Virus record (IMG/VR): IMGVR_UViG_3300011114_000310
Span: 1 to 27,224 of that record
DNA from: a virus
Direction: 5' to 3' (one strand)
Length of the DNA stretch: 27,224 nt
In this document: one piece after another, positions 2 through 23,134 of the stretch
How positions within the stretch are numbered: position 1 is the stretch's first letter
Layout of the letters: each line of letters opens with the position of its first letter
Made by a program: the position numbers and the translations under genes
Notes under the pieces: generated by a model
Seen by the model: only the letters and a program-made list of their open reading frames with translations
The model's database searches: none
What the model was told of the DNA's origin: nothing

Positions 2-1057
2 CTTAACTCCTTCGATAGCATTGTGATCTGCTTCGATGCTGATGAGCCGGGTAAGAAGGCTTCTAAGGAAGTAGCTGAACTGTTTGGTAACAAGGCTAAG
101 ATTGTGAAGCACTTGAGTGGCTACAAAGATGCCTGTGACTATCTCATTGCAGGTGCTACCAAAGAGTTTGTGAATGAGTGGTGGAGAGCTGAGGTGTACA
201 TTCCTGATGGCATCATCAATGCAGCATCACTGTGGGAGGAAGTCATTAAACCTGAGGCTAAGGCTGAGGCTATGTACCCTTGGAAGGGCTTGAATAAGCT
301 CTTGTATGGTATCAGACCTTCAGAGTTAATCACAGTCACAGCAGGTAGTGGCTTGGGTAAGAGTCAATTCCTACGTGAAATATTGTTCAATATACTGAAC
401 ACTACGACTTGGAACATTGGAGGATTGTTCCTTGAGGAGTCCACTCGAAAGACAGCTCGAAGTATCATGAGCTTACACGCTAACAAACTACTGCACTTAC
501 CTGACACTCCAACAACTGAACAGGAGCTTAAAGATGCTTTCGATGCAACACTTGGTACTAATCGTGTTTATCTCTTTGACCATTTCGGTAGCAGTGACGT
601 TGACAACATTGCCAACAGAATCCGATATATGGCTAAGGCTTGCGATTGCAGGGTTATCTTTCTTGACCACATCAGTATTGTTATATCTGGTCAAGACAAT
701 GGAGATGAGCGTAAGGCTATTGATAACATGATGACGAAGCTTAGGACACTGGTGCAGGAGCTGGAGATTACCTTGATCTGTGTCAGTCACCTTCGTAGAC
801 TGCAAGGGAACCAAGGTCATGAGGATGGTGGCAGTGTCTCACTGTCGCAGCTCAGAGGCTCAGGTGCTATTGCTCAACTGAGTGATGCTGTGATTACATT
901 GGAGCGTAACAGCATGGCAGCAGATGACAATGAGAGACATCAGACCAAGATCTCAGTGGCTAAGAATCGTTACAATGGTTATACAGGCCCAGCTTGTGTG
1001 CTCAAGTATGACATGGAAACTGGACGCATGGTGGAGATGCAGGAGGAGGTACTATGA
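2..1057 (+). CDS. Primase-helicase (T7 gp4-like), 5' end outside window
   Basis: Replicative DNA helicase with the end of a primase TOPRIM domain; it would unwind the fork ahead of the family A polymerase downstream and prime the lagging strand. The frame is open to the left edge, so the zinc-binding and most of the primase part lie outside; the GTG at 23 is internal. Visible near the start is the TOPRIM acidic motif FDADEPG, then DACDYL. The RecA-type helicase follows: Walker A GSGLGKS, FLEE with the catalytic glutamate, Walker B VIFLDH, the VSHLRR motif and a Gln/Arg-rich RGSGAIAQLSDA segment, as in DnaB/gp4 family proteins. The stop overlaps the next ATG (ATGA), with a strong AGGAGGAGG ribosome site inside the 3' end. 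Family assignment is firm; what the missing N-terminus contains is unknown. Confidence 0.93.
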   Translation, partial: LNSFDSIVICFDADEPGKKASKEVAELFGNKAKIVKHLSGYKDACDYLIAGATKEFVNEWWRAEVYIPDGIINAASLWEEVIKPEAKAEAMYPWKGLNKLLYGIRPSELITVTAGSGLGKSQFLREILFNILNTTTWNIGGLFLEESTRKTARSIMSLHANKLLHLPDTPTTEQELKDAFDATLGTNRVYLFDHFGSSDVDNIANRIRYMAKACDCRVIFLDHISIVISGQDNGDERKAIDNMMTKLRTLVQELEITLICVSHLRRLQGNQGHEDGGSVSLSQLRGSGAIAQLSDAVITLERNSMAADDNERHQTKISVAKNRYNGYTGPACVLKYDMETGRMVEMQEEVL

Positions 1058-1212
1058 GTAAGGGAAGTACACCTAGACCTTTCAGCGTAGCTCAGGAGCA
1101 GTACGATGCTCGATGGGACTTAATCTTTGGTCGTGATAAGGGTGACAAAGAGCGTGATGTAGCCTTTGATAAAGAGATGGATAAGCTAGAAGAGGAGACT
1201 GAAGATGAGTAG
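1054..1212 (+). CDS. Small conserved-type phage protein, 52 aa
   Basis: Unknown function. It begins MSKGSTPRPFSV and ends in a very acidic tail (EEETEDE). It is preceded by AGGAGGAGG at 1041-1049, five bases from the ATG, one of the best ribosome sites in the window. It overlaps the helicase stop by 4 bases and the next gene by 8 bases, so it reads as one link in a translationally coupled chain. The N-terminal motif is, as far as I recall, common in short proteins next to helicase or polymerase genes of podophages; that is memory, not a search. No catalytic motif or membrane segment is visible. The strong site and tight coupling make it a real gene. Confidence 0.75.
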   Translation: MSKGSTPRPFSVAQEQYDARWDLIFGRDKGDKERDVAFDKEMDKLEEETEDE

Positions 1213-1351
1213 TATTCTGATTGCAATCATTGGAGTGGTCTACACTGTAGTGGCTGTGGACTTACTCTACAAAGGTAACACTGGCTTGGGTATAGCCTTC
1301 ATTGGCTATGCACTAGGTAACGTGGGGCTGTACATGGAGGCTGCAAAATGA
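1205..1351 (+). CDS. Small membrane protein, 48 aa
   Basis: Hypothetical membrane protein. Two hydrophobic stretches are visible: residues 3-21 (ILIAIIGVVYTVVAVDLLY) and roughly 27-43 (GLGIAFIGYALGNVGLY), separated by a short KGNTG turn, so a two-helix hairpin is likely. The start ATG lies 8 bases inside the preceding gene, and its stop shares ATGA with the following gene. The ribosome site is a GAAGAGGAGA stretch inside the upstream gene. Such small membrane proteins in early phage operons sometimes interfere with host or competing phages, but nothing here shows that. Function unknown; the call as a gene rests on packing, ribosome site and clear membrane character. Confidence 0.65.
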   Translation: MSSILIAIIGVVYTVVAVDLLYKGNTGLGIAFIGYALGNVGLYMEAAK

Positions 1352-1614
1352 GCAAGTGGGTTAAGAACATTAAGAACCAAGCTGAAGCTGATGCTATCAT
1401 TGAAGCTCGTAAGGAGAAGATTAGACAGCAACAGAGTGCTTGGGCTAAAGCCAATAGAGACAAGGCCAATGCGTACAAGAGAGCCACTAAGGAACGTAAG
1501 AGGAATATATTACTATTAACCGCAGCAGACCCTGTAAAGACTGCCTACCATACTGACTGGAGGGGTACACTGTATCATTGCCCTGAATTAACGTATAGAG
1601 GAAAGAATGATTGA
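1348..1614 (+). CDS. Hypothetical basic protein, 88 aa
   Basis: Unknown function. Residues about 10-55 are highly charged and Lys/Arg/Ala-rich (AWAKANRDKANAYKRATKERKR), predicting a long basic helix. This resembles the helical segment that precedes the HNH motif in some phage HNH proteins, but no HNH, zinc or catalytic motif follows; the C-terminal third (HTDWRGTLYHCPELTYRG) has only one Cys. It could bind nucleic acid. It starts in the ATGA overlap of the membrane protein and ends 8 bases inside the next gene. Confidence that it is expressed is good; function is not assignable. Confidence 0.7.
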   Translation: MSKWVKNIKNQAEADAIIEARKEKIRQQQSAWAKANRDKANAYKRATKERKRNILLLTAADPVKTAYHTDWRGTLYHCPELTYRGKND

Positions 1615-1789
1615 CCTAGACACCATAGCTGGTAGAATGCTTGACTTGGAGACTAAGTACTATGAAATGCAAGATAAGTATCAGTTACTTATTCACCACT
1701 ATGAAGACCTAAAGGCAGAGTATGAAGCGTATCGTATTGGACATAGAGACAACCTTAGATCACAACACGATCTGGATGGTAGTAACTAA
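1607..1789 (+). CDS. Small coiled-coil protein overlapping polymerase start, 60 aa
   Basis: Hypothetical. It is preceded by a strong AGAGGAAAG ribosome site. Residues about 8-45 (LDLETKYYEMQDKYQLLIHH and what follows) have heptad-like spacing of hydrophobics among charged residues, typical of a coiled coil. Its 3' 68 bases overlap the 5' end of the DNA polymerase gene in another frame, so both proteins share DNA that encodes the polymerase exonuclease I motif. It might be a dimeric accessory or regulatory peptide, but that is speculation. Support comes from the ribosome site and from filling the gap between two firm genes. Confidence 0.65.
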   Translation: MIDLDTIAGRMLDLETKYYEMQDKYQLLIHHYEDLKAEYEAYRIGHRDNLRSQHDLDGSN

Positions 1790-3440
1790 GGACATTGACA
1801 GTGGAGAAGTGAACGTATGGAAAGCAGCAGACAGCCTCGTGGAGTATTTAAAGGACGTTACATTGATAGTAGCCCACAACGGGATAAGCTTCGATTTCTC
1901 GATACTCAACAGGCTTTGGAGTACGAAGATTCGCTTGAACCAAGTGTACGATACACTGATAGCCTCAAGACTGCTAGATCCCTCAGTAGAGAACGGTCAC
2001 AGCTTAGACGCATGGGGAACTCGACTAGGGAAGAATAAGATTGACTACACAAAGGTATGGACATGGTTGATGGAACGACGAGAGGAATACAAAGGTGAGT
2101 GCTTCAACATTCCTCACATGGCTCTTCTGGAGTATTATTGCATTAGGGACGTTGAGGTCACTTGTAATCTTTATAAGCATCTTACTGATGAACTCAATAA
2201 GAAAGACTTTTCACAAGAAAGCCTTGCTCTTGAACATAAGGTAGCATCTATCATTGCTGAACAGGAACGTCATGGATTCAAACTCGATCAAGCCTATACA
2301 ACCTGTTTACTTGCTGACATCAAAGGAAAGATGGCAGGAATCTATGAACAAATGCAAGAGAGATGGCCTCCAGTCATCACACAAAGGTTCCACAAAACCA
2401 GTGGAAAGCCCATCAAAGACTGCATTGATACTTTCAATCCCGGAAGTAGAAAGCAGATTGGAGAGAAGCTGATGGAGCTAGGATGGAAGCCTAAGGTGTT
2501 TACTGAGAAGGGTCAGGCTATTGTCGATGAGTCTGTACTGTCTAAAGTTGTAAACATTCCTGAGGCTCAGATGATTGCTACATACTTGATGCTACAGAAA
2601 CGTGTAGCTCAGATTGAAAGTTGGCTGGAAGCTGTTGGTAAGGACGGTAGAGTACATGGTAAGGTAATAACGAATGGAGCTGTAACTGGTAGGATGACTC
2701 ACAGTAGTCCTAACATGGCACAGATTCCTAATGCTGGGAGTATCTATGGGCCTGAGTGCAGAGAATGTTGGACTGTGGAAGCAGGTAATGTATTGGTTGG
2801 TTGTGACGCTAGTGGCCTTGAGCTGCGTATGCTTGCACATTATATGAAAGATGATAACTATGTTAAGACAGTCACTGAAGGATCGTCAAAGGACGGCACT
2901 GACGTACACACGCAGAATCAAAAGGCTGCAGGGTTACAAACAAGGGATCAAGCGAAGACATTTATATACGCATTCCTATACGGTGCAGGGCCAGCTAAGA
3001 TTGGTTCCATTGTCGGTGGTAATGCTAAAGCGGGACAGAAGCTTATTGACTCCTTTCTTGCGAACACACCAGCATTACAGCGTCTTAGAAATACGGTTAG
3101 CAGATATGCGGGTAAGGGCTTTGTACCGGGGCTTGATGGTCGCAAGATATGGGTTCGCAGTGAACACGCTGCCCTCAATTCGCTCCTTCAAGGGGCTGGG
3201 GCGATAGTGATGAAGAAAGCTTTAGTATTGTTTCACGATAAGACTAAGGCTAACAAGTGGCCTGTGAAGCTGGTAGCTAATGTCCATGATGAATTTCAAC
3301 TTGAAGTTCCTAAGATATATGCTACAATAGTAGGTGAGGCTGCAAAGCAAAGTATCGTTGAAGCTGGGCTGCATTTCAAGCTTCGTTGTCCACTAGACGG
3401 GGAGTACAAAGTTGGCAACAACTGGCGTGAAACACATTGA
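1722..3440 (+). CDS. DNA polymerase, family A, with 3'-5' exonuclease
   Basis: Replicative phage DNA polymerase related to T7 gp5, 572 aa (shorter than the roughly 700 of T7). The DEDDy proofreading domain comes first: Exo I DIET (D7, E9), Exo II AHNGISFD (D58), Exo III YCIRD (Y139, D143), all residues intact. The polymerase domain follows: motif A VGCDASGLELR (D362), motif B RDQAKTFIYAFLYG (R408, K412, Y416) and motif C VHDEF (D523, E524). Tyr416 sits at the position of T7 Tyr526. The ATG at 1722 is preceded by AAAGGCAG and is embedded in the upstream 60-aa gene. It works with the helicase upstream and the SSB, exonuclease and resolvase downstream as one replication set. Confidence 0.97.
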   Translation: MKRIVLDIETTLDHNTIWMVVTKDIDSGEVNVWKAADSLVEYLKDVTLIVAHNGISFDFSILNRLWSTKIRLNQVYDTLIASRLLDPSVENGHSLDAWGTRLGKNKIDYTKVWTWLMERREEYKGECFNIPHMALLEYYCIRDVEVTCNLYKHLTDELNKKDFSQESLALEHKVASIIAEQERHGFKLDQAYTTCLLADIKGKMAGIYEQMQERWPPVITQRFHKTSGKPIKDCIDTFNPGSRKQIGEKLMELGWKPKVFTEKGQAIVDESVLSKVVNIPEAQMIATYLMLQKRVAQIESWLEAVGKDGRVHGKVITNGAVTGRMTHSSPNMAQIPNAGSIYGPECRECWTVEAGNVLVGCDASGLELRMLAHYMKDDNYVKTVTEGSSKDGTDVHTQNQKAAGLQTRDQAKTFIYAFLYGAGPAKIGSIVGGNAKAGQKLIDSFLANTPALQRLRNTVSRYAGKGFVPGLDGRKIWVRSEHAALNSLLQGAGAIVMKKALVLFHDKTKANKWPVKLVANVHDEFQLEVPKIYATIVGEAAKQSIVEAGLHFKLRCPLDGEYKVGNNWRETH

Positions 3441-3603
3441 TAAGAATCAGATTCTATTTAGTGTTGAAGGGGAAACTTTCAAGATTAAGATAGGAGAGGA
3501 TCTAGACCTTGAAGAGGTGTATACTGTGCTCTTATCAGCACTTGTGCACTTAGAAGATCTAGCATCGGGTAATACAGCTCACCCGTCCCAAGAGCTGCAT
3601 TAA
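3412..3603 (+). CDS. Hypothetical protein, 63 aa, TTG start
   Basis: Unknown function. The start is uncertain: TTG at 3412 has a good GGGGAG site (3399-3404) seven bases upstream, while GTG at 3427 has no suitable site; no ATG is available near the N-terminus. With the TTG the gene overlaps the polymerase end by 29 bases. The sequence (QILFSVEGETFKIKIGEDLD) suggests a small beta-rich domain followed by a helix (LEEVYTVLLSALVHLEDLAS). It sits between polymerase and SSB. Its acidic, compact character would fit a small accessory protein, but no family is recognised. Confidence 0.65.
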   Translation: MATTGVKHIDKNQILFSVEGETFKIKIGEDLDLEEVYTVLLSALVHLEDLASGNTAHPSQELH

Positions 3604-3616
3604 AGAGGAAAATGAA

Positions 3617-4048
3617 ATGAGTATTGATACAGTGAAACCCGTTAAAGTTGCTGGTGAAATCTTCTGGAGCAACTGGATGAATAACTTTAACACTAAGTTC
3701 AACGAAGACAACAAGAAGTACGAATGTACCATTGGTAACTTGAGTGATGCAGCTTGTGAGAAGCTTAAAGAGCTGGGCATCAACATCAAGAACAAAGAGA
3801 GCATGGGTAACTTTATTGTTGCTAAGTCTACTTACTTGTTCACACCTGTGGACGAAGAAGGTAATCCTGTAGACATTGCCATGATGGGTAATGGTACTAA
3901 GTGTCACGCAGTCATCTCTTCATACCGTCACAAGATGTCAGCTAAGTTTGGTGCTGCACCTTCTATTAAGAAGTTGATTGTTACTGAACTGAAGGTGTAC
4001 GTCCCTGAAGGTGAAGAAGCAGCAGAGACAGCGGACGATGTCCTCTGA
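3617..4048 (+). CDS. Single-stranded DNA-binding protein (T7 gp2.5-like)
   Basis: A protein of 143 aa that would coat single-stranded DNA at the fork and interact with polymerase and helicase. The features match gp2.5-type SSB: a single OB-fold-sized domain (FWSNWMNNFNTKFNEDNKKY, later TYLFTPVDEEGNPVDIAMMG and AVISSYRHKMSAKFG) and a short acidic C-terminal tail ending EEAAETADDVL, the tail that in this family contacts polymerase and helicase. The start ATG follows AAAGAGGAAAATGAA. Position between polymerase and exonuclease is the usual one in T7-like replication modules. The last 11 bases overlap the exonuclease start. Identity by pattern, not by search. Confidence 0.85.
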   Translation: MSIDTVKPVKVAGEIFWSNWMNNFNTKFNEDNKKYECTIGNLSDAACEKLKELGINIKNKESMGNFIVAKSTYLFTPVDEEGNPVDIAMMGNGTKCHAVISSYRHKMSAKFGAAPSIKKLIVTELKVYVPEGEEAAETADDVL

Positions 4049-4748
4049 TAAGCCTACTGAGGCTATTGTAGATGCTGACTTTTTAGTTTATAAAGTTGGC
4101 TTCTCCAATGAAGCTGAAGAAGAACAGTGGGCACTAAATCGACTCACAGAGTGGTTTACCGACATCATCTATATGCGTCTGAAGTGTGATGACTACAGAG
4201 CATGGATTACAGGTAAAACTAACTTTAGATTCGAGGTAGCTACCACTGTTCCTTACAAGGGCAATCGTAAGGATGCTCCCAAGCCTATACACTATGAGGC
4301 TCTTCGCAAACATCTCATGAAGCTCGGTGCTAAGGTGTCTGAGAACGAGGAGGCTGATGACTCTGTAGGCATAGCGTCCACTGAAGGTAACTACTGGATC
4401 GTCCACGTTGACAAGGATCTAGATCAGTTACCGGGGTGGCACTATAATCCTGTAAAGGATGAGGAGTATTATGTTACTGAGTTTGAAGGCTTGTACAGTT
4501 TCTACAAACAGATACTGACAGGTGACAGAGTTGATAACATTGAAGGTATACGAGGTATTGGCCCTGTAAAGGCTGATAAGATTCTCAAAGACTGTACAAC
4601 CGAAGAGGAATTATATGCAGCTTGTATCAAAGCTTATGACGGCAATACTGACAGGGTACTGGAAAACGGTAAGCTCCTATGGCTAAGAAGAAAAGCAAAC
4701 CAGATGTGGCAACCACCTTCGAGCTTGCAGGATCAGTCTGGAACGTAG
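4038..4748 (+). CDS. 5'-3' exonuclease (T7 gp6-like, FEN/PIN fold)
   Basis: Structure-specific 5' exonuclease of 236 aa, expected to remove RNA primers and degrade host DNA for nucleotides. N-terminal AIVDADFLVYKVGF carries the metal-binding aspartates. Further motifs: PYKGNRK, ENEEADDSVG with adjacent acidic residues, VHVDKDLDQLPG, and the helix-hairpin-helix LTGDRVDNIEGIRGIGPVKA typical of FEN-family nucleases. The reading frame is also open upstream to a GTG at 4011, but ATG 4038 (MSSDKPTEA) gives the expected N-terminus; its ribosome site is weak, so it may depend on coupling to SSB translation. The last 70 bases overlap the next gene. Confidence 0.92.
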   Translation: MSSDKPTEAIVDADFLVYKVGFSNEAEEEQWALNRLTEWFTDIIYMRLKCDDYRAWITGKTNFRFEVATTVPYKGNRKDAPKPIHYEALRKHLMKLGAKVSENEEADDSVGIASTEGNYWIVHVDKDLDQLPGWHYNPVKDEEYYVTEFEGLYSFYKQILTGDRVDNIEGIRGIGPVKADKILKDCTTEEELYAACIKAYDGNTDRVLENGKLLWLRRKANQMWQPPSSLQDQSGT

Positions 4749-4981
4749 TCTATGCAGATCACATGGAAGACATGGGTAAATGTGATCCTGAGAAGCAAAC
4801 CATTAGCATACGTACAGGAATGAATAAGCAGTCTACTGAGCAAACCTTCTACCATGAGTTAGTTCATGCCATCTTGTTCACAATGGGTAAGCTAAACCAC
4901 GAAGAAGAGTTTGTAGATACCTTTGGAGCTTTCTTGCACCAGTATCAGATCACTAAGGAGTACCATGAAGCCGAAGCGTAA
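4679..4981 (+). CDS. Small HExxH metallopeptidase-like protein, 100 aa
   Basis: Predicted zinc metalloprotein. The core motif is FYHELVHAILF (H59, E60, H63), followed by HEEEFVDTFGAFL, where E77 or D80 could be the third ligand, as in minimal gluzincin/ImmA-IrrE-like and SprT-like proteins. The N-terminus is basic (MAKKKSKPD) and a short beta region (WNVVYADHM, TISIRTG) precedes the motif, matching the compact fold of this group. No extra domain fits in 100 aa. It starts 70 bases inside the exonuclease gene with a poor ribosome site and ends 17 bases inside the endonuclease gene. Possible targets are a host regulator or a phage protein; none is indicated by the sequence. Confidence 0.75.
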   Translation: MAKKKSKPDVATTFELAGSVWNVVYADHMEDMGKCDPEKQTISIRTGMNKQSTEQTFYHELVHAILFTMGKLNHEEEFVDTFGAFLHQYQITKEYHEAEA

Positions 4982-5393
4982 GAAGCCACTGACAGTTAGA
5001 CAAGTAGCTTTGAAGCATGGTTTTAGGTCAGGTTTAGAAGACAAGATAGCTGAGAGATTGAAAGCCTTAGAAGTTCCATTTGAGTATGAGAAGTTAATCA
5101 TTGGATATACGCAGCCTGAGAAGAAACGTACATACACTCCTGACTTCCTTCTACTTAAGAATGGTATTATCATTGAGAGCAAGGGCAGGTTCATGACTGC
5201 TGATAGACAGAAACATTTGATGGTGAAGGAACAACATCCTGAACTTGATATTAGATTTGTCTTCAGTAACTCTAAATCTAAACTCTCAAAGGTAAGCCAA
5301 ACTACATACGGGGATTGGTGCAACAAGCATGGATTCCAATATGCCGATAAAGATATTCCTATGTCATGGTTAAATGAAAAGAGAGGTAAATGA
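4965..5393 (+). CDS. Endonuclease I / Holliday-junction resolvase (T7 gp3-like)
   Basis: Resolves branched phage DNA and helps degrade host DNA. The 142 aa match T7 gp3 through most of their length: FRSGLEDKIAERL, YTPDFLL, NGIIIESKGRF, DRQKHLMVKEQHPELDIRFV, YGDWCNKHGFQYADK. The catalytic set of T7 endonuclease I (Glu20, Asp55, Glu65, Lys67) corresponds to E25, D60, E71 and K73 here, all present. ATG 4965 is chosen over the longer open frame because of AAGGAG at 4955-4960 and because the N-terminus then agrees with gp3 length (149 aa). It overlaps the metallopeptidase end by 17 bases and shares ATGA with the next frame. Confidence 0.95.
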   Translation: MKPKRKKPLTVRQVALKHGFRSGLEDKIAERLKALEVPFEYEKLIIGYTQPEKKRTYTPDFLLLKNGIIIESKGRFMTADRQKHLMVKEQHPELDIRFVFSNSKSKLSKVSQTTYGDWCNKHGFQYADKDIPMSWLNEKRGK

Positions 5394-5395
5394 TT

Positions 5396-5659
5396 ATGTT
5401 AGCTAATCTAATTGAAGCTTTAGAAAAGTCTAAAGAACTTCGCAGTGTATGGGAAGACTTTACAGATGTTATTCTTGTGGAGAAACTTAAAGAAACCTAC
5501 TTGAATACTATCAATGGTGGTTGGAGTTCTCATCCTGAGGACATTGCTGAGAACAAGAAAGTCAATGCAGCCATTGGTATTGTCTTAGGTTACTTCATGT
5601 ACACTGGTGATGCTCAGGAGTTCTTGAAAGAGGCTGAAAATGAACGTGAATCTGATTAA
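5396..5659 (+). CDS. Hypothetical helical protein, 87-89 aa
   Basis: Unknown function. Two ATGs compete: 5390 (three bases after GAGAGG) and 5396 (nine bases after it); the second has better spacing and gives MLANLIEALEKS. The protein is mostly helical and acidic, with a conserved-looking centre (NTINGGWSSHPEDIAENKKV) and a hydrophobic helix (AIGIVLGYFMYTG). The latter is too short and interrupted to be a confident membrane span. It lies in the coupled chain between the resolvase and the next small gene, overlapping each by 4-20 bases. Confidence 0.7.
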   Translation: MLANLIEALEKSKELRSVWEDFTDVILVEKLKETYLNTINGGWSSHPEDIAENKKVNAAIGIVLGYFMYTGDAQEFLKEAENERESD

Positions 5660-5834
5660 AGAGCATGAGAATGGTGATGCAACATATCAGTTTGACCTTA
5701 CAGCTGATGAAGCTCAATCACTTCTTACCTTTGGTATCCTAGAATCCATCAAAGCTGGTATACGTGAAGGTGATAGACTAACAGTAGAAGGAGATGACAT
5801 TGAAGATCCTAGTAATCCCGGACTGTCAGATTAA
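5640..5834 (+). CDS. Hypothetical acidic protein, 64 aa
   Basis: Unknown function. It is acidic and compact, with a beta-type N-terminus (MNVNLIKEHENGDATYQFDL) and a helix (ADEAQSLLTFGILESIKAGI). An AAAGAGG ribosome site lies inside the preceding gene, 20 bases before that gene ends. The C-terminus overlaps the metallophosphoesterase start. Proteins of this pattern are, from memory, frequent neighbours of phage nucleotide-metabolism genes; the role is not known to me. Confidence 0.7.
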   Translation: MNVNLIKEHENGDATYQFDLTADEAQSLLTFGILESIKAGIREGDRLTVEGDDIEDPSNPGLSD

Positions 5835-6567
5835 AGAGGGTGTACCTTTAGAGCACCTGACATGGGCTGGTAAGGCCATTGTCGATTACAAACCTGATGT
5901 AGTGATTAACATAGGTGACTTTGCAGATATGCCAAGCCTTAGCACTCACGACATCAAGGGTAGTAAGTACTTTGAAGGTCTACGCTACAAGAAGGACGTT
6001 GAAGCTACTAAGGAGGCCATGAAGCTTCTCTTAGCACCTTTGAAGGAACTTCAGAAGTCTCAGAAGTCATCTAAGCACAAGGTGTACAAGCCTCGTATGG
6101 TGATGACTTTAGGGAACCATGAGAACCGTATTGATAGGGCTATTAACAATAATCCTACACTGGAAGGCTTAATATCTACAAAGGATCTTGAGTATGAAAA
6201 AGATTGGGAAGTACACGGTTTCCTTCATCCTGTATTCATTAATGGGGTGGGGTTTAATCATTACTGGCCTGTGGGGGCTATGGGACGACCCGCAGGGGCT
6301 GCTAGTGCTATTATTAACAAGCTTCATATGTCTTGTGTTGCTGGACATCAACAAGGAAAGCAGATTGCATACGGTAAGAGGGCTGATGGGAAGCCTATTT
6401 GTGCTATCATCGTTGGGTCTTATTATCTCCACGATGAAAGTTATATGGATCAACTAAGCAATAGACACTGGAGGGGCTTACTGATGATGAATGAAGTACA
6501 GGATGGACACTTCGATGAAATGTTCTTAAGCGTAGAATACTTAGGGAGGAAATATGGCAGCGATTGA
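5800..6567 (+). CDS. Calcineurin-like metallophosphoesterase
   Basis: Predicted metal-dependent phosphoesterase of 255-257 aa. Metal-binding blocks in order (numbered from ATG 5794): IPDCQ (D10, with Gln12 where the usual DxH has His), NIGDFAD (D42), LGNHENR (N108, H109, E110), FNHYW (H156) and VAGHQQ (H185, followed by Gln186 where the usual GHxH has His). The two-metal site therefore seems present, with Gln in two His positions. Start choice: the AAGGAG at 5788-5793 touches the ATG at 5794, leaving no spacer, whereas TTG 5800 lies six bases from it and gives MKILVIPDCQ, a more natural N-terminus; I prefer the TTG. Substrate unknown; DNA ends, nucleotides or a signalling nucleotide are all possible. 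Confidence 0.88.
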   Translation: MKILVIPDCQIKEGVPLEHLTWAGKAIVDYKPDVVINIGDFADMPSLSTHDIKGSKYFEGLRYKKDVEATKEAMKLLLAPLKELQKSQKSSKHKVYKPRMVMTLGNHENRIDRAINNNPTLEGLISTKDLEYEKDWEVHGFLHPVFINGVGFNHYWPVGAMGRPAGAASAIINKLHMSCVAGHQQGKQIAYGKRADGKPICAIIVGSYYLHDESYMDQLSNRHWRGLLMMNEVQDGHFDEMFLSVEYLGRKYGSD

Positions 6568-6979
6568 ATGTAGTACTTGTTTTTATAGTGAATTAGACAG
6601 TGGTATTCATCCTTGTAATGATTGCACTAATTATGATAAGTGGGTTAATCGTAACCTCTACATAAGAGAAGCAGCAAAACCACTTAGTGAAGCCATTAAA
6701 GAGTGGGTTGACTGCAAGGATGATGATAATAAAGAAGTAAAAGAGGTTGGTAAGTTCTTTAAACAAATGAGAGATATAGTTAATAAACCTCCTCACTACA
6801 CTGCACATCCCTCAGGTATTGAATGTATCCAAGTTACAGAGCACATGGGTTTTAACTTAGGTAATGCAATCAAGTACATCTGGAGATGTGACCTTAAGCA
6901 AGATGCCATTGAAGACCTGAAGAAGGCTAAATGGTACATTGAACGTGAGATTGAGAAACGTGCTAAACATAACCTTTGA
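6554..6979 (+). CDS. DUF3310 protein with N-terminal Cys cluster
   Basis: A protein of 141 aa. The C-terminal half is a clear DUF3310 domain: VNKPPHYTAHPSGIECIQV, LGNAIKYIWRCDLK, AIEDLKKAKWYIEREIE. This family is widespread in phages near nucleotide-metabolism genes, sometimes labelled nucleotide-kinase-like, without proven activity. The N-terminus has C6xxC9 and C21xxC24, a likely small zinc-binding knuckle. A charged linker (about residues 40-72) joins the two. The ribosome site GGGAGGAAAT is strong. Being just upstream of the ribonucleotide reductase fits a role in nucleotide supply or host DNA breakdown, an inference only. Confidence 0.88.
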   Translation: MAAIECSTCFYSELDSGIHPCNDCTNYDKWVNRNLYIREAAKPLSEAIKEWVDCKDDDNKEVKEVGKFFKQMRDIVNKPPHYTAHPSGIECIQVTEHMGFNLGNAIKYIWRCDLKQDAIEDLKKAKWYIEREIEKRAKHNL

Positions 6980-7118
6980 AGAACTGAAAGAGGCTCTCAA
7001 GCGTTTGGATGAGGTCTCACTCTTGGAACTGTTAGGAATCCAGAGTGATGATCTTGTCGAAAGATTTGATGATGTGATTGAGAAAAAACAAGAATATTTA
7101 ATAAAGGAACTAGACTAA
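6960..7118 (+). CDS. Small acidic helical protein, 52 aa, GTG start
   Basis: A short gene filling the space between DUF3310 and the reductase. From GTG 6960 it reads MLNITFEELKEALKRLDEVS and ends EKKQEYLIKELD; the whole chain is predicted helical and strongly acidic. Its first 20 bases overlap the DUF3310 gene and its TAA shares one base with the reductase ATG (TAATG). The ribosome site is weak (GAG eight to ten bases upstream), so coupling is likely. I recall similar short peptides beginning with this ITFEELKE pattern in podophages, but cannot verify. Function unknown. Confidence 0.65.
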   Translation: MLNITFEELKEALKRLDEVSLLELLGIQSDDLVERFDDVIEKKQEYLIKELD

Positions 7119-9022
7119 TGACAACAACTATGACACCATACCAAGAATACATTGGCAAGAGTCGCTACTCTCGCTACTTGGATGATAAAGGCCGTAGAGA
7201 GCACTGGCCTGAGACTGTGAACCGCTACTTTGACTTCATGACCAAGCACTTGCAAGAGAAGCATAATTACACTATTCCTGCAAATCTAAAATCGGAACTT
7301 CGATCTGCAGTAACTAACTTAGAAGTGATGCCATCAATGCGTAGCATCATGACAGCTGGTGATGCCTTAGAGCGACAGAACATTGCAGGTTATAACTGCT
7401 CATACCTTCCCATTGATGACCCTAAAGCCTTTGATGAGGCTATGTATATTCTGTTATGCGGAACTGGTGTAGGCTTTAGTGTGGAGCAAAAGTATGTATC
7501 TAAGTTACCTGAGATTCCAGTTGATCTCTACAATAGTGGCACTGTCATTAATGTTAAAGACTCCAAAGAGGGATGGGCTAAAGCCTTACGACAAGTCATT
7601 GCCTTGCTATATGCAGGTGAGATTCCAAAGTGGGATGTCTCAGGAGTACGTCCAGCAGGTGCGAGACTTAAAACTTTTGGTGGTAGAGCATCAGGGCCGG
7701 AACCCCTTGTATCCTTATTTCACTACGTCACTGCTAAATTCAAAGGGGCAACGGGCCGTAAGCTCACTTCGCTTGAAGCGCATGACATCCTCTGCAAGGT
7801 GGGAGAGGTAGTTGTTGTCGGTGGGGTTCGTAGATCTGCAATGATCTCTTTGTCAGACTTGGGCGATGACCGTATGGCTCATGCTAAAGCTGGCAACTGG
7901 TGGGACGGTAATGGTCAACGTGCCTTGGCTAACAACAGTGCCATCTACGAAGTGAAGCCTGAGGTAGGTAAGTTCATGCGTGAGTGGTCAAGTATTTATG
8001 AATCACATTCTGGAGAGCGAGGCATCTTTAATCGTTATGCAAGTGAACTTCAAGCAGCTAAGAGTGGACGTAGGGAATTGGGTAAAGAGTGGGGTACAAA
8101 CCCTTGCAGTGAGATTATCCTTAGACCTTATCAATTTTGTAATCTGTCTTCTGTTATTGTCAGGAGCGATGATAGTGTGGATACTCTACGGAATAAAGTG
8201 CGCTTGGCTACTATTCTGGGGACTTTTCAATCGACGATGACTTACTTTCCTTACCTTCGTAAGGTGTGGCAGACAAACACTGAAGATGAGCGTTTGCTTG
8301 GTGTGTCCATGACGGGTATCTTGGACAATGCTTTATTGAATAATCCTGATAATGCTGAACTACCTGCCATCTTGGAAGGAATGAAGAATGTTGCTATTGA
8401 CACTAACGCTGAGTTTGCTGACGCTATCGGTATTAATCGTAGTGCTGCCATTACTGCCATTAAGCCAGAGGGCACTGTCTCTCAGCTTACAGGCACTGCT
8501 AGTGGCATCCACCCTCAGCACAGTCAGTACTTTATTCGTAGGGTACGCTCTGATAACAAAGACCCTCTGACTGCATTCTTGAAAGAGCAAGGGTTCCCGT
8601 CTGAGCTGTGTGTGATGAAGCCTGATAGCACTACTATCTTTAGCTTTCCCATGCGAGTTGAGAAGGGTGCTGTACTGCGTGAAGACTTGAATGCTATCCA
8701 ACACTTGAAACTGTGGTTATTGTTCCAGCGTCACTACTGTGAGCATAAGCCTTCAGTGACTATTTCAGTGAATGAGAATGAGTGGCCTGAAGTTGGAGCT
8801 TGGGTGTGGAATAACTTTGATGAGATTACAGGTGTGAGTTTCCTACCTATGGATGGTGGAACATACCGACAAGCTCCTTATGAGTCCATGACTGAGGAAG
8901 AGTATCATGCAATGGTTGCTGCTATGCCAGCTGGTATTGATTGGGACAAACTGGTTGAAGGCACTGACAATGTTGAAGGTGCTCAGACACTAGCGTGTAC
9001 CGCTGGTGCGTGTGAGATATGA
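7118..9022 (+). CDS. nrdJ: Ribonucleotide reductase, class II (adenosylcobalamin-dependent), monomeric
   Basis: Reduces ribonucleotides to deoxyribonucleotides for phage DNA synthesis, using a cobalamin-derived radical and needing no separate small subunit or oxygen. The 634 aa resemble the Lactobacillus leichmannii triphosphate-reductase type (about 739 aa). Evidence: GYNCSY with the first redox Cys (C94), LLCGTGVGFS, the active-site NPCSEI (N328, C330, E332) followed by QFCNLSS with the second redox Cys (C341), KPEGTVSQLTGTASGIHP, and HKPSVTISV. The C-terminus ends CTAGACEI, a C-x4-C pair that shuttles electrons in this family. All key residues are present, so the enzyme should be active where the host can make or take up B12. 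It shares TAATG and ATGA junctions with its neighbours. Confidence 0.95.
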   Translation: MTTTMTPYQEYIGKSRYSRYLDDKGRREHWPETVNRYFDFMTKHLQEKHNYTIPANLKSELRSAVTNLEVMPSMRSIMTAGDALERQNIAGYNCSYLPIDDPKAFDEAMYILLCGTGVGFSVEQKYVSKLPEIPVDLYNSGTVINVKDSKEGWAKALRQVIALLYAGEIPKWDVSGVRPAGARLKTFGGRASGPEPLVSLFHYVTAKFKGATGRKLTSLEAHDILCKVGEVVVVGGVRRSAMISLSDLGDDRMAHAKAGNWWDGNGQRALANNSAIYEVKPEVGKFMREWSSIYESHSGERGIFNRYASELQAAKSGRRELGKEWGTNPCSEIILRPYQFCNLSSVIVRSDDSVDTLRNKVRLATILGTFQSTMTYFPYLRKVWQTNTEDERLLGVSMTGILDNALLNNPDNAELPAILEGMKNVAIDTNAEFADAIGINRSAAITAIKPEGTVSQLTGTASGIHPQHSQYFIRRVRSDNKDPLTAFLKEQGFPSELCVMKPDSTTIFSFPMRVEKGAVLREDLNAIQHLKLWLLFQRHYCEHKPSVTISVNENEWPEVGAWVWNNFDEITGVSFLPMDGGTYRQAPYESMTEEEYHAMVAAMPAGIDWDKLVEGTDNVEGAQTLACTAGACEI

Positions 9023-18665: not shown

Positions 18666-19451
18666 TTAGACACCCATTTGTTTGCGTATCTTAGTTGCTG
18701 AAATAGCGTGTGTAGCATCGTCAAATGACTCTTGCTCAATCTTATATCCCACATCTCTACCATAGGTAATATTAACCACATTAGGTACAAGTTGTATCTC
18801 ATACTGACCTTGGTATAAAGGGTCTAAATCACGCTTGATAAAGTCTTTAACCTGATTAGCGGCAAAGGGGTTTGAGCTGTTCCAACCCTGACAGTCTCTA
18901 ATCTGAATAACCACTTGACCCGTCTTGGCCAATGCCCTCTCAAACAACTTACGATGGCCTTCATGCCAAGGTTGCCATCTGCCAAGCATCTGGACAGTCT
19001 CTTTCTGCCAATCAAAGACGGGGCGTGGGCGTTCATCCAAGATGTGAGCAGCAATGAACTCTCCCCACTTCTCAGCCTTTTGCTCAGTAATTCTGAAGTC
19101 GTACTGTTCGGGTGCAACAAACACCTTGTTGGTGTCTTCAAAACGGCCTTGGTTGATGGTGTCAACCCAGACAGTCCAGTCAGCCTTAAAGTTGTTACGC
19201 ATCTCAACTAGAGGGGCTACAAAGTCACAAATAACATAATCTACATCGTAACTGTCAGCAAGCTCACGCATACGCAAGCTCTGGCGAATACGACCCTCAT
19301 GAGAAAAGTCCCAGTCGTTATACTTTTTACGTACATCGTCAGCATTTAACCACATGACTGTTTTACGTTCTGCCTGTAAATGGTCAAGAATATGTTGAGC
19401 CAAAGTAGTTTTACCAGAACCCGGTAAACCCATAATCAATATACGTTTCAT
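18666..19451 (-). CDS. APS-kinase-like / HxGH nucleotidyltransferase fusion
   Basis: A two-domain protein of 261 aa. Residues 1-140 are a P-loop kinase: GLPGSGKTTLAQ (8-19), WLNADDVRKKYNDWDFSHEGR with the basic and acidic residues seen in adenylylsulfate kinases, then DYVICDFVAPLVEMR and WVDTI. Residues 150-261 are a nucleotidyltransferase: GRWQPWHEGH with the HxGH signature (163-166), NPFAANQVKDFI, and the ISATKIR motif (250-256) that closes the site in NMN-adenylyltransferase-like enzymes. The kinase looks like CysC; the transferase looks less like ATP sulfurylase than like the NMNAT/cytidylyltransferase group, so making PAPS is plausible but not certain; a NadR-like role (with domains reversed) is the alternative. 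It overlaps the sulfotransferase by 4 bases. Confidence 0.82.
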   Translation of the reverse strand: MKRILIMGLPGSGKTTLAQHILDHLQAERKTVMWLNADDVRKKYNDWDFSHEGRIRQSLRMRELADSYDVDYVICDFVAPLVEMRNNFKADWTVWVDTINQGRFEDTNKVFVAPEQYDFRITEQKAEKWGEFIAAHILDERPRPVFDWQKETVQMLGRWQPWHEGHRKLFERALAKTGQVVIQIRDCQGWNSSNPFAANQVKDFIKRDLDPLYQGQYEIQLVPNVVNITYGRDVGYKIEQESFDDATHAISATKIRKQMGV

Positions 19452-20269
19452 CCTTTAACCTTATAAAGTTGTTTGATTGCAAACTCTGGTGCAGGTGTAC
19501 GCCAGAACTCCTTGCCATTATACTTCTCCCATACAGATTTAGGAAGAATAGATGGGCGTTCTTGCCATGTCACTTCTTTGCGTACTGTATGCAGACTTTT
19601 CATGTTTAACGCTTTGTCATACACCTCATTGTCATACTCAACATTCTTGAAGTCATGTTCGTAATAAGGCTTTCCAATAAACCCATAAATCTCACGCATC
19701 ACGCTCTCAGGCTGTTTACATAAAGATTCATATTCCACCAACATAATCATGTCGGGGTTTAACAGTAAACCTTCTTCTAAGAAGTAATAAGGCTTGACCA
19801 CTTGGCCTTCCTTCTTTACGTCCATCAGGGCATCGCACCTTGTGGTGACTGTCTGCCTAGCTTCATCGTCTGTCAGGGTTGCACCATACAAAGAATTCTT
19901 GGCAGCAATACGTTCAAAGCTATCCAGTATCCAAGGTAAATCACGCACACAACAGACAATCTTGGTCTGTGGATACAGGTCTTTCAGCAGGGATGTTTTG
20001 GCAGTCCATCCCCTGCTAGTGTCAAACACTACGTTTGGAGTAACTGCTTTGTAGTAAGCGTTAAACAAGTCTTTGAGTATTTGCTTGCGTCTGTCTTCAT
20101 CTATCAGGTGGTTACTCTCGCTACCTGTAATGACATTGATTGTTGATGTAACCAATCCTTGTACGGGTGAAGAAATGTCTGCATAGAACTCAGGGTTCTG
20201 TCGCAGAATAGCCGAGAGCAGGGTAGAACCTGACCTTGGCAAACCAGAGATGAAGAAGAACTCTTTCAT
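19448..20269 (-). CDS. Sulfotransferase family protein
   Basis: A protein of 273 aa expected to move a sulfuryl group from PAPS to a hydroxyl or amine. The 5'-phosphosulfate loop is GLPRSGSTLLSA (residues 9-20), and the 3'-phosphate site is CVRDLPWILDSFER (R109, S117), both intact; the aromatic YYFLEEGLLLNPDMIMLVEY region and WRTPAPEF near the end fit the fold. ATG 20269 overlaps the upstream stop (ATGA); the open frame extends five codons further to a TTG without support. The acceptor is unknown: host surface glycan, phage fibre, or a small molecule. Being coupled to a kinase-nucleotidyltransferase gene supports a complete activation-transfer pair. Confidence 0.88.
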   Translation of the reverse strand: MKEFFFISGLPRSGSTLLSAILRQNPEFYADISSPVQGLVTSTINVITGSESNHLIDEDRRKQILKDLFNAYYKAVTPNVVFDTSRGWTAKTSLLKDLYPQTKIVCCVRDLPWILDSFERIAAKNSLYGATLTDDEARQTVTTRCDALMDVKKEGQVVKPYYFLEEGLLLNPDMIMLVEYESLCKQPESVMREIYGFIGKPYYEHDFKNVEYDNEVYDKALNMKSLHTVRKEVTWQERPSILPKSVWEKYNGKEFWRTPAPEFAIKQLYKVKG

Positions 20270-20691
20270 TCCATTGGAATCCAATTAACTGTAGCTTCGT
20301 CCCATTGGTAGCGTACATTCCCACCATTCATAATAGCATCAGCGGGTCTTGGCACTGGCGCACCCCATGTCATTGTGTCCAAGTAACCAATCCAAGATGG
20401 ATAAGGTCTACGGGCTTCATGCTCGGCAACTTTGGCTGAATTGAACTCGGCTTCTGTTAAGACTTGCAAAACACCAGCAATGGTAGTGTCGGCATCGTCA
20501 TCGCAAGTGCCGTAGTATTTGGGGGCACGTAAGTATGTTCCATCAGATGTTGTTGCCACAGGCCATGTAGAACTGTCATGCCATACGTGCTTGTAGCCCT
20601 TGACATCTGGCATTGATGGGCCTGTGCGCTGTGGTTCGGCTGTGCAGACTATTTTAGTTACTGCATCTACTTCTGTTACACAAATGTACAT
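20266..20691 (-). CDS. Tail-fibre-associated hypothetical protein, 141 aa
   Basis: Start set at ATG 20691 (MYICVTEVDAVTKIV) since the longer open frame would run into the fibre-tip gene; an AAGGG lies about 7 bases upstream. The C-terminal part (RRPYPSWIGYLDTMTWGAPV, then YQWDEATVNWIPME) has the repeating Trp/Pro pattern (YPSW...W-APVP-P...Y-WDE-T--W) that I associate with small proteins encoded after phage fibre genes, some of them fibre chaperones or tip components. Two Cys lie near the N-terminus. It shares ATGA with the sulfotransferase. Role inferred from context. Confidence 0.7.
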   Translation of the reverse strand: MYICVTEVDAVTKIVCTAEPQRTGPSMPDVKGYKHVWHDSSTWPVATTSDGTYLRAPKYYGTCDDDADTTIAGVLQVLTEAEFNSAKVAEHEARRPYPSWIGYLDTMTWGAPVPRPADAIMNGGNVRYQWDEATVNWIPME

Positions 20692-20711: not shown

Positions 20712-21350
20712 TTAAACTGCGACTCTGCGAACAGCACGAACTCGGAAGTAGCTGGCTTTTGAATTGTAGTTGGCTTGAGCGCCTTGACCAAAGAACTGCG
20801 CCCATCCATTTGAAGCAGAACCCTCTGTACTAGCCCAATAATTAGCATTCTCAAAGTATTGCGCATTTGGGCTTTGAAAAGCAGAAGCAGAAGTTTGAGC
20901 AGGGTCACCAGAAGTATAATTACTTGCCCTTGCAGGAACTGCATTTGGATTTATGCCAGACCCAGTGCTGTTACCACCTGAAGTTGGTTTTAAATTGTAA
21001 TAGCACAATTCCAATTCATTTTTAGCTGGCATATACCAATCACTGAAACCTCCAATAGTTAAACCTTCGCAAAATTCAGCTGCTGGATGGGTTATGTTGT
21101 TCATTGCTGCGCTGTTGGCTGGCCCATCAATATCTGAGGAAGTTCCAGAGGTTGCGGTATTTACTATTTTCCATTGTTTACTTGTGCTTTCAGCAGAAGC
21201 TACGGGGCCAACAACTAAGTTGTAATCAGCAATCCCATTACCAGCAGTCGATATTTGCCCTACAAAAAACCCGCCTTTAAAAGCAGCACCAATAGCAGGC
21301 GGCCCAAAAGAACGCTGATTTTGAAATACTGCTTGTAGTACACCGCTCAT
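20712..21350 (-). CDS. DUF1566-type fibre tip / receptor-binding candidate
   Basis: A protein of 212 aa starting at ATG 21350, which overlaps the fibre stop (ATGA). The C-terminal two thirds carry a C-type-lectin-like DUF1566 pattern: GGFSDWYMPAKNELELCYYN, then YFENANYWASTEG, GWAQFFGQG and a final YFRVRAVRRV. This domain commonly forms adhesin or receptor-binding tips, and the gene follows the long fibre directly. The N-terminus (MSGVLQAVFQNQRSFG) may attach to the fibre. Two Cys (in EFCEGL and LELCYY) could be structural. DUF1566-like domains are also known targets of diversity-generating retroelements; no reverse transcriptase is in this window. Confidence 0.8.
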   Translation of the reverse strand: MSGVLQAVFQNQRSFGPPAIGAAFKGGFFVGQISTAGNGIADYNLVVGPVASAESTSKQWKIVNTATSGTSSDIDGPANSAAMNNITHPAAEFCEGLTIGGFSDWYMPAKNELELCYYNLKPTSGGNSTGSGINPNAVPARASNYTSGDPAQTSASAFQSPNAQYFENANYWASTEGSASNGWAQFFGQGAQANYNSKASYFRVRAVRRVAV

Positions 21351-23134
21351 GTTAAGCCACTCCCTGAAATTAACCAAGTTGTTGATGTCATTTTGATTGC
21401 AGTTGCTGAACCATATTGGGCCAAACTGCGTGAACCAGTTGTGCCAGCAGAAGACAAATACATTGTGTCTGTCGTAATGGCAATCGTCACAACTTGGCTT
21501 GTCATGTTGATAAATGTGACTGCTGTGCCAATAGGATAAGCCACAGAACTGTTTGCAGGGATTGTGTATGTCCTTGCATTGGCATCGCCTGATGGATGGA
21601 AGATGTGTTTGCCAGCATCAGCTAAAACTAATGTGTAGGCTGCTGATTGACTATTCTGTGGGATGTTTCTAAAGCCAACTGCATCAGTACCATCAACTGT
21701 GCAATTACTTAATGTTCCGCTTGTTGGTGTTCCAAGTACGGGGGTTGTAAGTGTTGGAGATGTCAGAGTCTTGTTGGTTAGCGTATCAGTTGTTGCTCTA
21801 CCCACTAATGTGTCTGTGCTTGTTGGTAGCGTCAATGTGCCAGTATTGCTAATACTTGAAATAATCGGTGCAGTAAGAGTCTTGTTTGTCAGGGTTTCTG
21901 TGCCTGTCAAAGTGGCAAAGGAGCCAGCTGTTAGAGTAGCTTGAGTCCATGCTGAACCACTCCACACCCACAGATTAGAGGATGTTGAGTTCCAATACAA
22001 AGCACCTGTCAGCAAAGCATTGCCATCATTGTCAACTGTGGGTGCTGATGCTTTAGGGCCAAGATACCTGTCATCAAAGGAATCATAGGACGCTGCAGCT
22101 GAACTTGCTGATGCACTGGCTGCAGAGGCCGATGAAGAAGCTGCAGAGGCTGAGTTACCAGCATTAGTCTCTGAAGTTGCTGCATTGGACGCTGAAGTAG
22201 CTGCTGCTGTAGCACTACCTAAGATACTATCGACATAAGCCTTACGTGTAAGGTCATCGTTAGTTGTTGGAGTAGCTGTAGATGTAACCTTGTTAGCACC
22301 CATGACAATGTTACCTGTCATGGTTCCACCAGACAAAGGCAATCCTGCAGCTGCTGAAGTATCTACGTAGCCTTTAGTGGCAGCATCTGTGTTTGCAGTG
22401 GGAGTACCAAGACCTGTGATTTTAGACGTACCCATTGCAATAGCACCTGTCATAGTGCCTCCAGCCAAGGGAAGCTTAGCTGCAATAGAGTTAGTTACAG
22501 TGGTGGAAAATGAAGCATCATTACCTAGAGCTGTAGCAAGTTCATTAAGTGTATCTAATGCTCCGGGAGCTGAAGCTACCAAGTTACTGATAGATGTATC
22601 AACATATCCCTTAGTAGCTGCATCACCTGAATTAGTTGGTGAGGTAAGGTTAGTAATGGTGGCTGCAGTACCAGCATTCATGTTTAAGCCACCGTTAATG
22701 GTGACATCATTGAATGAAGAAGTACCTGTAGAGGCTGTTACGTTACCAGTTAAGTTACCTGTGACGTTACCAGTTACAGTACCTGTCACGTTACCAGTTA
22801 CGTTACCTGTCACAGCACCAGTCAAAGCACCTGCAAAGTTAGTAGTAGCTGTAACTACAGTACCTGTAATAGCTGCTGCTGTAGTACCACCAATAGGAGT
22901 ATTGTTAATTGTACCACCAGTCTGAGCTACGCCAGCAACAGTACCACCTGTGATGGCAGCTGCTGAAGCTTCTTGATTACCAAGTGAACCTACAATCCTA
23001 ACAACAGTTGCACTATTGTCTTTGGTGTACAGCTTCTTATCTGTTACGTTAACAGCTAACTCACCTTTAGTGAGATCTCCTGCAGCAGGTACAGCTGTGG
23101 ATGTACTGCTATTCTTTGTAATGATTGTTGCCAT
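21347..23134 (-). CDS. Tail fibre protein, low-complexity, 595 aa
   Basis: Long fibre subunit. The N-terminus ATIITKNSSTSTAVPAAGDL with GELAVNVTDKKLYTKD is the usual phage fibre start. It is followed by a TGNV repeat zone, three fibre repeats of the type DAATKGYVDTS with LPLSGGTMTGNI between, an Ala/Ser coiled zone (SASAASASASSAAAS), and paired ETLTNKTLTAPIIS / DTLTNKTLTSPTL repeats before a beta-rich C-terminus. No chaperone or enzymatic domain is seen. The ATG follows AGGAAC. The adjoining small genes probably supply the tip and an accessory factor. Highly repetitive sequence makes it prone to recombination. Confidence 0.9.
   Translation of the reverse strand: MATIITKNSSTSTAVPAAGDLTKGELAVNVTDKKLYTKDNSATVVRIVGSLGNQEASAAAITGGTVAGVAQTGGTINNTPIGGTTAAAITGTVVTATTNFAGALTGAVTGNVTGNVTGTVTGNVTGNLTGNVTASTGTSSFNDVTINGGLNMNAGTAATITNLTSPTNSGDAATKGYVDTSISNLVASAPGALDTLNELATALGNDASFSTTVTNSIAAKLPLAGGTMTGAIAMGTSKITGLGTPTANTDAATKGYVDTSAAAGLPLSGGTMTGNIVMGANKVTSTATPTTNDDLTRKAYVDSILGSATAAATSASNAATSETNAGNSASAASSSASAASASASSAAASYDSFDDRYLGPKASAPTVDNDGNALLTGALYWNSTSSNLWVWSGSAWTQATLTAGSFATLTGTETLTNKTLTAPIISSISNTGTLTLPTSTDTLVGRATTDTLTNKTLTSPTLTTPVLGTPTSGTLSNCTVDGTDAVGFRNIPQNSQSAAYTLVLADAGKHIFHPSGDANARTYTIPANSSVAYPIGTAVTFINMTSQVVTIAITTDTMYLSSAGTTGSRSLAQYGSATAIKMTSTTWLISGSGLT
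22737..22833 (-). repeat. 12-bp tandem repeat inside tail fibre gene
   Basis: About eight imperfect copies of a 12-base unit (two forms, GTTACCAGTTAC and GTTACCTGTCAC on the + strand) coding for TGNV/TGTV on the - strand. The copies keep frame, so length changes would add or remove four residues each. Coding repeat, not a CRISPR. Confidence 0.85.

Follow-up and report, generated by a model that had tools for sequence, protein, structure and literature searches.

The window analysed here is the whole 27,224-nucleotide stretch of the viral record IMGVR_UViG_3300011114_000310. On its minus strand lies a run of genes in the order fibre, Lcl_C protein, small gene, sulfotransferase (ST), kinase–nucleotidyltransferase fusion, small genes and adaptor protein (Table 1). 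Both genes that an earlier note, made from the DNA letters, had described as ATGA-coupled were located as open frames at that place and on that strand. The ST frame opens with an ATG at 20269 and closes with a stop at 19450–19448, and the fusion carries on one chain both of the halves claimed for it, a kinase-like P-loop domain followed by an HxGH nucleotidyltransferase (NT) domain ending in ISATKIR. The small gene preceding ST also runs into it by an ATGA overlap and, judged on position alone, is fibre-assembly-like. Elsewhere in the window, positions 7118–9022 encode a B12-dependent ribonucleotide reductase with 64% identity to the Rhizobium and Roseobacter phage enzymes.

Table 1. Features of the fibre–sulfotransferase–fusion run in the window, and stand-alone NT genes of SAR11 loci
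Feature	Position	Strand	Description
Tail fibre protein (opens the run)	21347..23134	-	phrog_38058 tail fiber, 1.9e-29
Lcl_C (PF07603) protein, candidate fibre tip	20712..21377	-	39.2 bits vs cut-off 34.9; upstream of ST and fusion
Conserved small gene 5' of ST	20266..20691	-	likely start 20691 (MYICVTEV), ~141 aa; phrog_7759, 3.6e-05
PAPS-type sulfotransferase (ST)	19448..20269 with stop (19451–20269 without)	-	273 aa, P0002; PF13469, PF00685; phrog_27463, 1.5e-48
ATGA shared by the end of ST and the start of the fusion	19448..19451	-	read from sequence
Kinase–NT fusion gene	18669..19451 (18666–19451 with stop)	-	261 aa, P0001; phrog_10255, 1.5e-52; AlphaFold pLDDT 91.3
APS-kinase-like domain	19029..19451	-	fusion residues 1–141; P-loop GLPGSGKT
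HxGH nucleotidyltransferase (NT) domain	18669..19016	-	fusion residues 146–261; about 116–120 aa
NT domain motifs of the fusion			GRWQPWHEGH, RDCQG, NPF, PNV, YGRDVGY, ISATKIR
Stand-alone NT gene, L418	7258–7638	-
Stand-alone NT gene, L419	7619–7999
Stand-alone NT gene, L420	3710–4090
Stand-alone NT gene, L421	7096–7476

Sulfotransferase and kinase domain

ST matches PF13469 (Sulfotransfer_3) with an E-value of 1.8e-17 and 64.8 bits, above the gathering cut-off of 27, and PF00685 with an E-value of 1.1e-10 in the Pfam search. Both PAPS-binding motifs are present as claimed, the 5'-PSB as GLPRSGSTLL and the 3'-PB as R109...S117, and they are not lost in homologues. Across 142 ST sequences with identities down to below 20%, the motif residues are 92–100% conserved, with R12, S13, G14, T16, R109 and S117 kept at 99–100%. 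At the sequence level, the identity of the window protein as a PAPS-type sulfotransferase is confirmed. Sulfotransferases of the phages S-SKS1 and S-SRM01 and of OM43 phages likewise belong to PF13469 and are ~30% identical to the window ST; unlike for the latter, no linked PAPS-making partner is described for them in the papers found. The function of the OM43 phage sulfotransferases is recorded as unclear (PMC10580990).

The kinase half of the fusion matches PF01583 (APS_kinase) with 42.2 bits (gathering cut-off 21.1, E 1.1e-10) and falls far below the cut-off of the ApsK equivalog TIGR00455 (30.8 vs 138.7). A profile built from 69 diverse fusions retrieves APS kinases as the top PDB chains, with 2yvu (3.4e-12) followed by the Aquifex, human and Penicillium enzymes. 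The Foldseek search with the AlphaFold model of the fusion agrees: the 38 top PDB matches are APS kinases or PAPS synthetases without exception, and human PAPSS1, aligned over 271 columns, ranks second. The same human protein is the first match of a kinase-only cousin protein. In CysC of Mycobacterium tuberculosis, Asp480 holds the APS ribose, Arg483 and Arg497 the phosphosulfate, and Phe492 and Phe576 the adenine (PMC4373884). Their counterparts in the fusion, assigned by motif spacing, are D38, R41, R54, F49 and probably F104; D38, R41 and F49 occur in all 69 fusions, as does F or Y at position 104, and R54 occurs in 68. Thus, the fusion kinase shares with CysC (PF01583) the fold, the P-loop, the Asp, both phosphosulfate Arg residues and the stacking Phe. 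It differs from CysC in having Gln for the Asn of ENxRR, in its sub-equivalog score and in its lid, which is shortened relative to APS kinases; the usual lid lysine is not identifiable there, and R103 may substitute for it. Taken together, homology, fold and site residues strongly indicate that the kinase half acts on APS.

Nucleotidyltransferase domain

The NT half is barely above the cut-off of PF01467 (CTP_transf_like; 22.1 vs 21 bits, E 2e-4). Among the 69 diverse fusions, which are 39–95% identical, R158, Q160, H163, H166, S251, T253 and R256 are invariant, as are G157, P161, G165, N224, G231, R232, V234 and G235, and the pair R185-D186 is nearly so. Because the HxGH and ISxTxxR residues are invariant, NT looks like a catalytic HxGH adenylyltransferase, although homology alone does not give its substrate. 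The earlier note had judged this half closer to NMN adenylyltransferases (NMNATs) than to ATP sulfurylases, and by homology this is correct. The best PDB match of the NT profile is an NMNAT (1f9a, E 4.7e-9), with no ATP sulfurylase at E ≤ 1. When the structure of each domain was predicted and searched, as the note had proposed, the kinase led to APS kinases and NT to PPAT and NMNAT: the 119-aa NT model (pLDDT 90.3) matches them weakly in Foldseek (E 4e-3 to 1e-2, probability 1.00), and ATP sulfurylases are absent from its best 50 matches. Likewise, the Sat family PF01747 is not among the Pfam families listed for the window proteins (25 of 41), and in place of the large Sat fold with its PUA-like domain the fusion has just the compact NT domain.

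Two known systems are instructive for comparison. Archaeal-type NadM, the best sequence match of NT, shares with it GRxQPxHxGH, NPF and ISxTxxR; NT is distinguished by the family-specific R185-D186 and YGR(D/G)VGY, by the loss of the ER of NPFTAxER, by its shorter length and by its sulfur-gene context. Animal PAPSS1/2 have the same domain order as the fusion, an APS kinase followed by an HxGH adenylyltransferase on a single chain. By contrast, the second half of the fusion has ~116 aa and is not Sat/PUA, its kinase lid is shortened, and its total length is 261 aa versus about 620.

The likeness to NMNATs suggests an alternative in NAD salvage, in which the kinase would phosphorylate nicotinamide riboside and NT would adenylylate NMN, so that NAD+ is rebuilt during infection or against NAD-depleting defences, with ST being unrelated. 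Phages do carry NAD-rebuilding enzymes, NT has both HxGH and ISxTxxR, the motif criteria for an NMNAT, and in Stenotrophomonas phage Bhz60 a NADAR-domain gene overlaps the fusion. However, NT scores far below the cut-off of the NMNAT equivalog TIGR01527 (29.4 vs 181.2), and the comparison of the kinase half with both CysC and NadR places it with APS kinases and not with the ribosylnicotinamide kinase of NadR. The genomic neighbourhoods considered below bear further on this alternative.

Distribution in phages and marine bacteria

Relatives number in the hundreds in IMG/VR, the best 80 of these at 85–100% identity, which places the ST–fusion pair far beyond chance. Of 98 ST–kinase junctions in related phages, 83 retain the ATGA overlap. 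By HMM count, ST is present in 71 of 80 loci retrieved with the fusion alone and in 68 of 76 retrieved with the kinase-only protein alone, and in the ST-less loci of both sets the DNA retrieved upstream spans at most ~4.4 kb, which would not reach an ST as far away as in loci of the L026 type. A co-occurrence of 100% from a cluster count was set aside in favour of these figures, since its clusters were loose and its rows de-replicated. ST of the window type (92–94% identity) precedes the fusion in some phages and a ~48% identical kinase-only protein of 144 aa in others. Fusions 91–97% alike also pair with STs of only 25–30% identity located ~4–5 kb upstream, some of which bear a C-terminal extension that by eye is TPR/glycosyltransferase-like. 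One 222-kb contig (L217) holds two STs, a kinase-only gene and the fusion together. In distant phages the association is looser: by HMM count ST is found in just 18 of 78 fusion loci and is absent from 60, with other ST-like neighbours recognised by motif in L228, L233, L260 and L283. A PF13469 gene is also absent from 17 of 30 long contigs carrying the fusion and from the three Stenotrophomonas-type phage records examined, where the fusion adjoins a NADAR gene; with the protein of the Stenotrophomonas phage as the only query, a scan gave zero matches. The co-occurrence expected from the earlier note thus holds for close relatives and in part fails in distant phages.

The phage loci differ widely in their other genes. 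L026 (2919–11188) combines RCC1-repeat fibre-like proteins, the fusion and an ST extended by a glycosyltransferase-like part with an HldE-like NT, a cupin, a pfkB kinase and an epimerase, a cluster that looks like phage-borne ADP-heptose-type sugar synthesis. The L217 cluster (513–7368) additionally includes an FkbM-like methyltransferase and a carbamoyltransferase-like gene and is reminiscent of Nod-factor decoration sets. In phage Bhz60 (L002, 11559–12735), an annotated cysteine dioxygenase gene lies ~3 kb upstream of the fusion–NADAR overlap. In L232, L236, L238–L242 and L248, a short gene (MazG-like in several of these phages) and an S-adenosylmethionine synthetase gene come after the fusion, and in L227–L229, L231, L233 and L244 an adenylosuccinate-synthetase gene lies just 5' of it. 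In L229, L230, L233, L244, L246, L275, L293, L294 and L303 the fusion adjoins a gene for a ~70-aa DUF2061 membrane protein, which in several phages comes directly after it; this family was considered as a possible neighbour of sulfate-assimilation genes. As evidence for a sulfur role this was dropped: DUF2061 was found in 5 of 75 genomes (class of G018), in none beside a cysC recognisable by eye.

The fusion family is also chromosomal in SAR86, SAR11, SAR116 and other marine proteobacteria, either as the fusion or as adjacent kinase (K) and NT (N) genes. Of 80 bacterial loci, 13 have ST and 21 have CysQ within two genes of K/N, the latter mostly in one alphaproteobacterial lineage; other ST families adjoin K/N in L313 and L371. 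The neighbouring CysQ scores above its equivalog cut-off (285 bits vs 228.8). CysQ is the phosphatase of PAP, the product of sulfotransferases. Among 35 K-N genomes, which are mostly incomplete so that single absences are weak, Sat is found in two, CysD in one and canonical ApsK in one (33, 34 and 34 without), while a PF13469 ST is found in 23. The complete SAR86 chromosome CP097973 encodes K-N and two STs and has no Sat, CysD or canonical ApsK. In SAR86, sulfate incorporation was reported to be unsupported save for one putative permease (PMC11582366). SAR11 was described as lacking sat and cysDN, and Pelagibacter as lacking cysDNCHIJ and sat, yet Table 3 of the same paper names cysC and cysQ (PMC5069961).

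A distinct arrangement is seen in SAR11. The fusion profile matches 43 of 60 Pelagibacteraceae genomes at E ≤ 0.001, about 30 of them strongly. In four SAR11 genomes (L418–L421), N occurs without K as a 126-aa gene immediately 5' of qmoC-aprB-aprA (Table 1). It follows a CADD-type gene, with one gene intervening in L419, and suyAB-like, TauE-like and xsc genes are nearby. In two further SAR11 loci (L312 and L314) the whole fusion occupies a similar place in the apr locus; the proteins of loci of this type score above their cut-offs (AprB 193.7 vs 135.65 bits, Xsc 954 vs 676, AprA 1000 vs 642). AprBA turns sulfite into APS, and ATP sulfurylase is usually next in sulfite oxidation. The position of N before qmoC-aprB-aprA in the absence of K therefore argues for a separate role of N on the sulfite/APS route. 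We consider the stand-alone N a candidate for the missing ATP sulfurylase of SAR11, and this gene context is the strongest support for an ATP-sulfurylase role; an APS:phosphate adenylyltransferase is a possible alternative.

These genomes also bear on NAD salvage. NadD is already over its cut-off in 18 of the 35 mostly incomplete K-N genomes, and four SAR86 genomes without it carry a separate 368–378-aa protein with an HxGH NT domain. One such protein, of 372 aa with the domain at its C-terminus (L401, 1489–2604, minus strand), is possibly an alternative NMNAT; for the N-terminal half of these proteins, read as PncC-like, a family match was not obtained. The CysQ, AprBA and ST neighbours are left unexplained by NAD salvage. 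Given the APS-site residues, CysQ, AprBA and the genome-absence results, we regard it as quite unlikely.

Proposed pathway and its alternatives

The domain identities, conserved residues, operon structure and co-inheritance of the two window genes are established, and we consider it likely that ST and the fusion constitute a phage-encoded cassette for sulfate activation and transfer in a tail-fibre operon. The fusion is best read as a minimal PAPS synthetase feeding ST. Its NT half, judging from gene context, is probably an ATP sulfurylase built on an NMNAT-like scaffold, which would convert sulfate and ATP into APS and PPi. APS would then be phosphorylated at its 3'-OH by the kinase half, yielding PAPS. 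ST, made from the same message via the ATGA overlap, would pass the sulfuryl group from PAPS to an acceptor produced or exposed in the course of infection, which we guess to be the phage fibre or tip or a surface glycan. An activate-and-transfer module placed after the fibre genes had been suggested in the earlier note; the fold, the APS-site residues and the phage and bacterial contexts speak for it, whereas the loose link to ST in distant phages speaks against it.

The ATP-sulfurylase/PAPS reading of the family is suggested by bacterial genomes that nearly all lack Sat, CysD and canonical ApsK and by the ST, CysQ and apr neighbours. With moderate confidence, we propose that NT represents a further ATP-sulfurylase family of ~120 aa from the NMNAT branch, standing beside Sat and CysDN and filling the gap in SAR11 sulfite oxidation. 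Together with the kinase it would be the PAPS synthetase of SAR86 and SAR11, captured by phages, fused or split, and used for sulfating fibres or the host surface.

A narrower alternative accepts a true APS kinase but takes APS from the host. NT would then be a non-catalytic partner, or else an APS adenylyltransferase of the APS:phosphate or another type. This would fit the many phages in which kinase-only proteins suffice beside ST, as well as the NMNAT/PPAT homologies of NT, and in the 7 of 35 K-N genomes with AprA over its cut-off APS could be provided by AprBA. However, NT looks catalytic, and the other 28 genomes are without AprA over cut-off and nearly all without Sat or CysD, so that another source of APS is needed there. 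We consider this alternative unlikely.

The fusion might instead make a nucleoside-diphospho-sugar or nucleotidyl-alditol for a glycan, on which ST would act with host PAPS. The NT superfamily does take in sugar- and alditol-phosphate nucleotidyltransferases, and the glycan-gene neighbours present in several phages and bacteria (epimerases, GLF, carbamoyltransferase, FkbM methyltransferase, HldE-like NT and kinase, and the ST that has a glycosyltransferase-like extension) are in line with such a donor. Yet the kinase keeps its APS-site residues, N stands alone in sulfite/APS operons, CysQ is linked to the family, and L026-type phages already own a kinase and an NT for heptose-type steps, which makes this explanation very unlikely. 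The suggestion in the earlier note of a novel donor other than PAPS accordingly fares poorly, as the bacterial contexts (ST, CysQ and apr loci) favour APS chemistry over NAD or a new donor.

SAR11 and SAR86 rank among the most abundant bacteria of the ocean. According to published descriptions, sulfate assimilation is absent from both (PMC5069961, PMC11582366). If the proposed reading is true, a compact sulfate-activating enzyme has been missed by standard models, and it would close a gap in the sulfur metabolism of these bacteria and could account for their orphan cysC and cysQ genes and sulfotransferases. A PAPS synthetase of 261 aa would also be of practical use for carrying out sulfation in vitro. 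For phages, it would mean a complete sulfation cassette within a fibre operon, with receptor binding, host-surface change and superinfection block as candidate roles, and would offer a role for phage sulfotransferases whose function is recorded as unclear. More generally, the family would represent an overlooked second way of sulfate activation.
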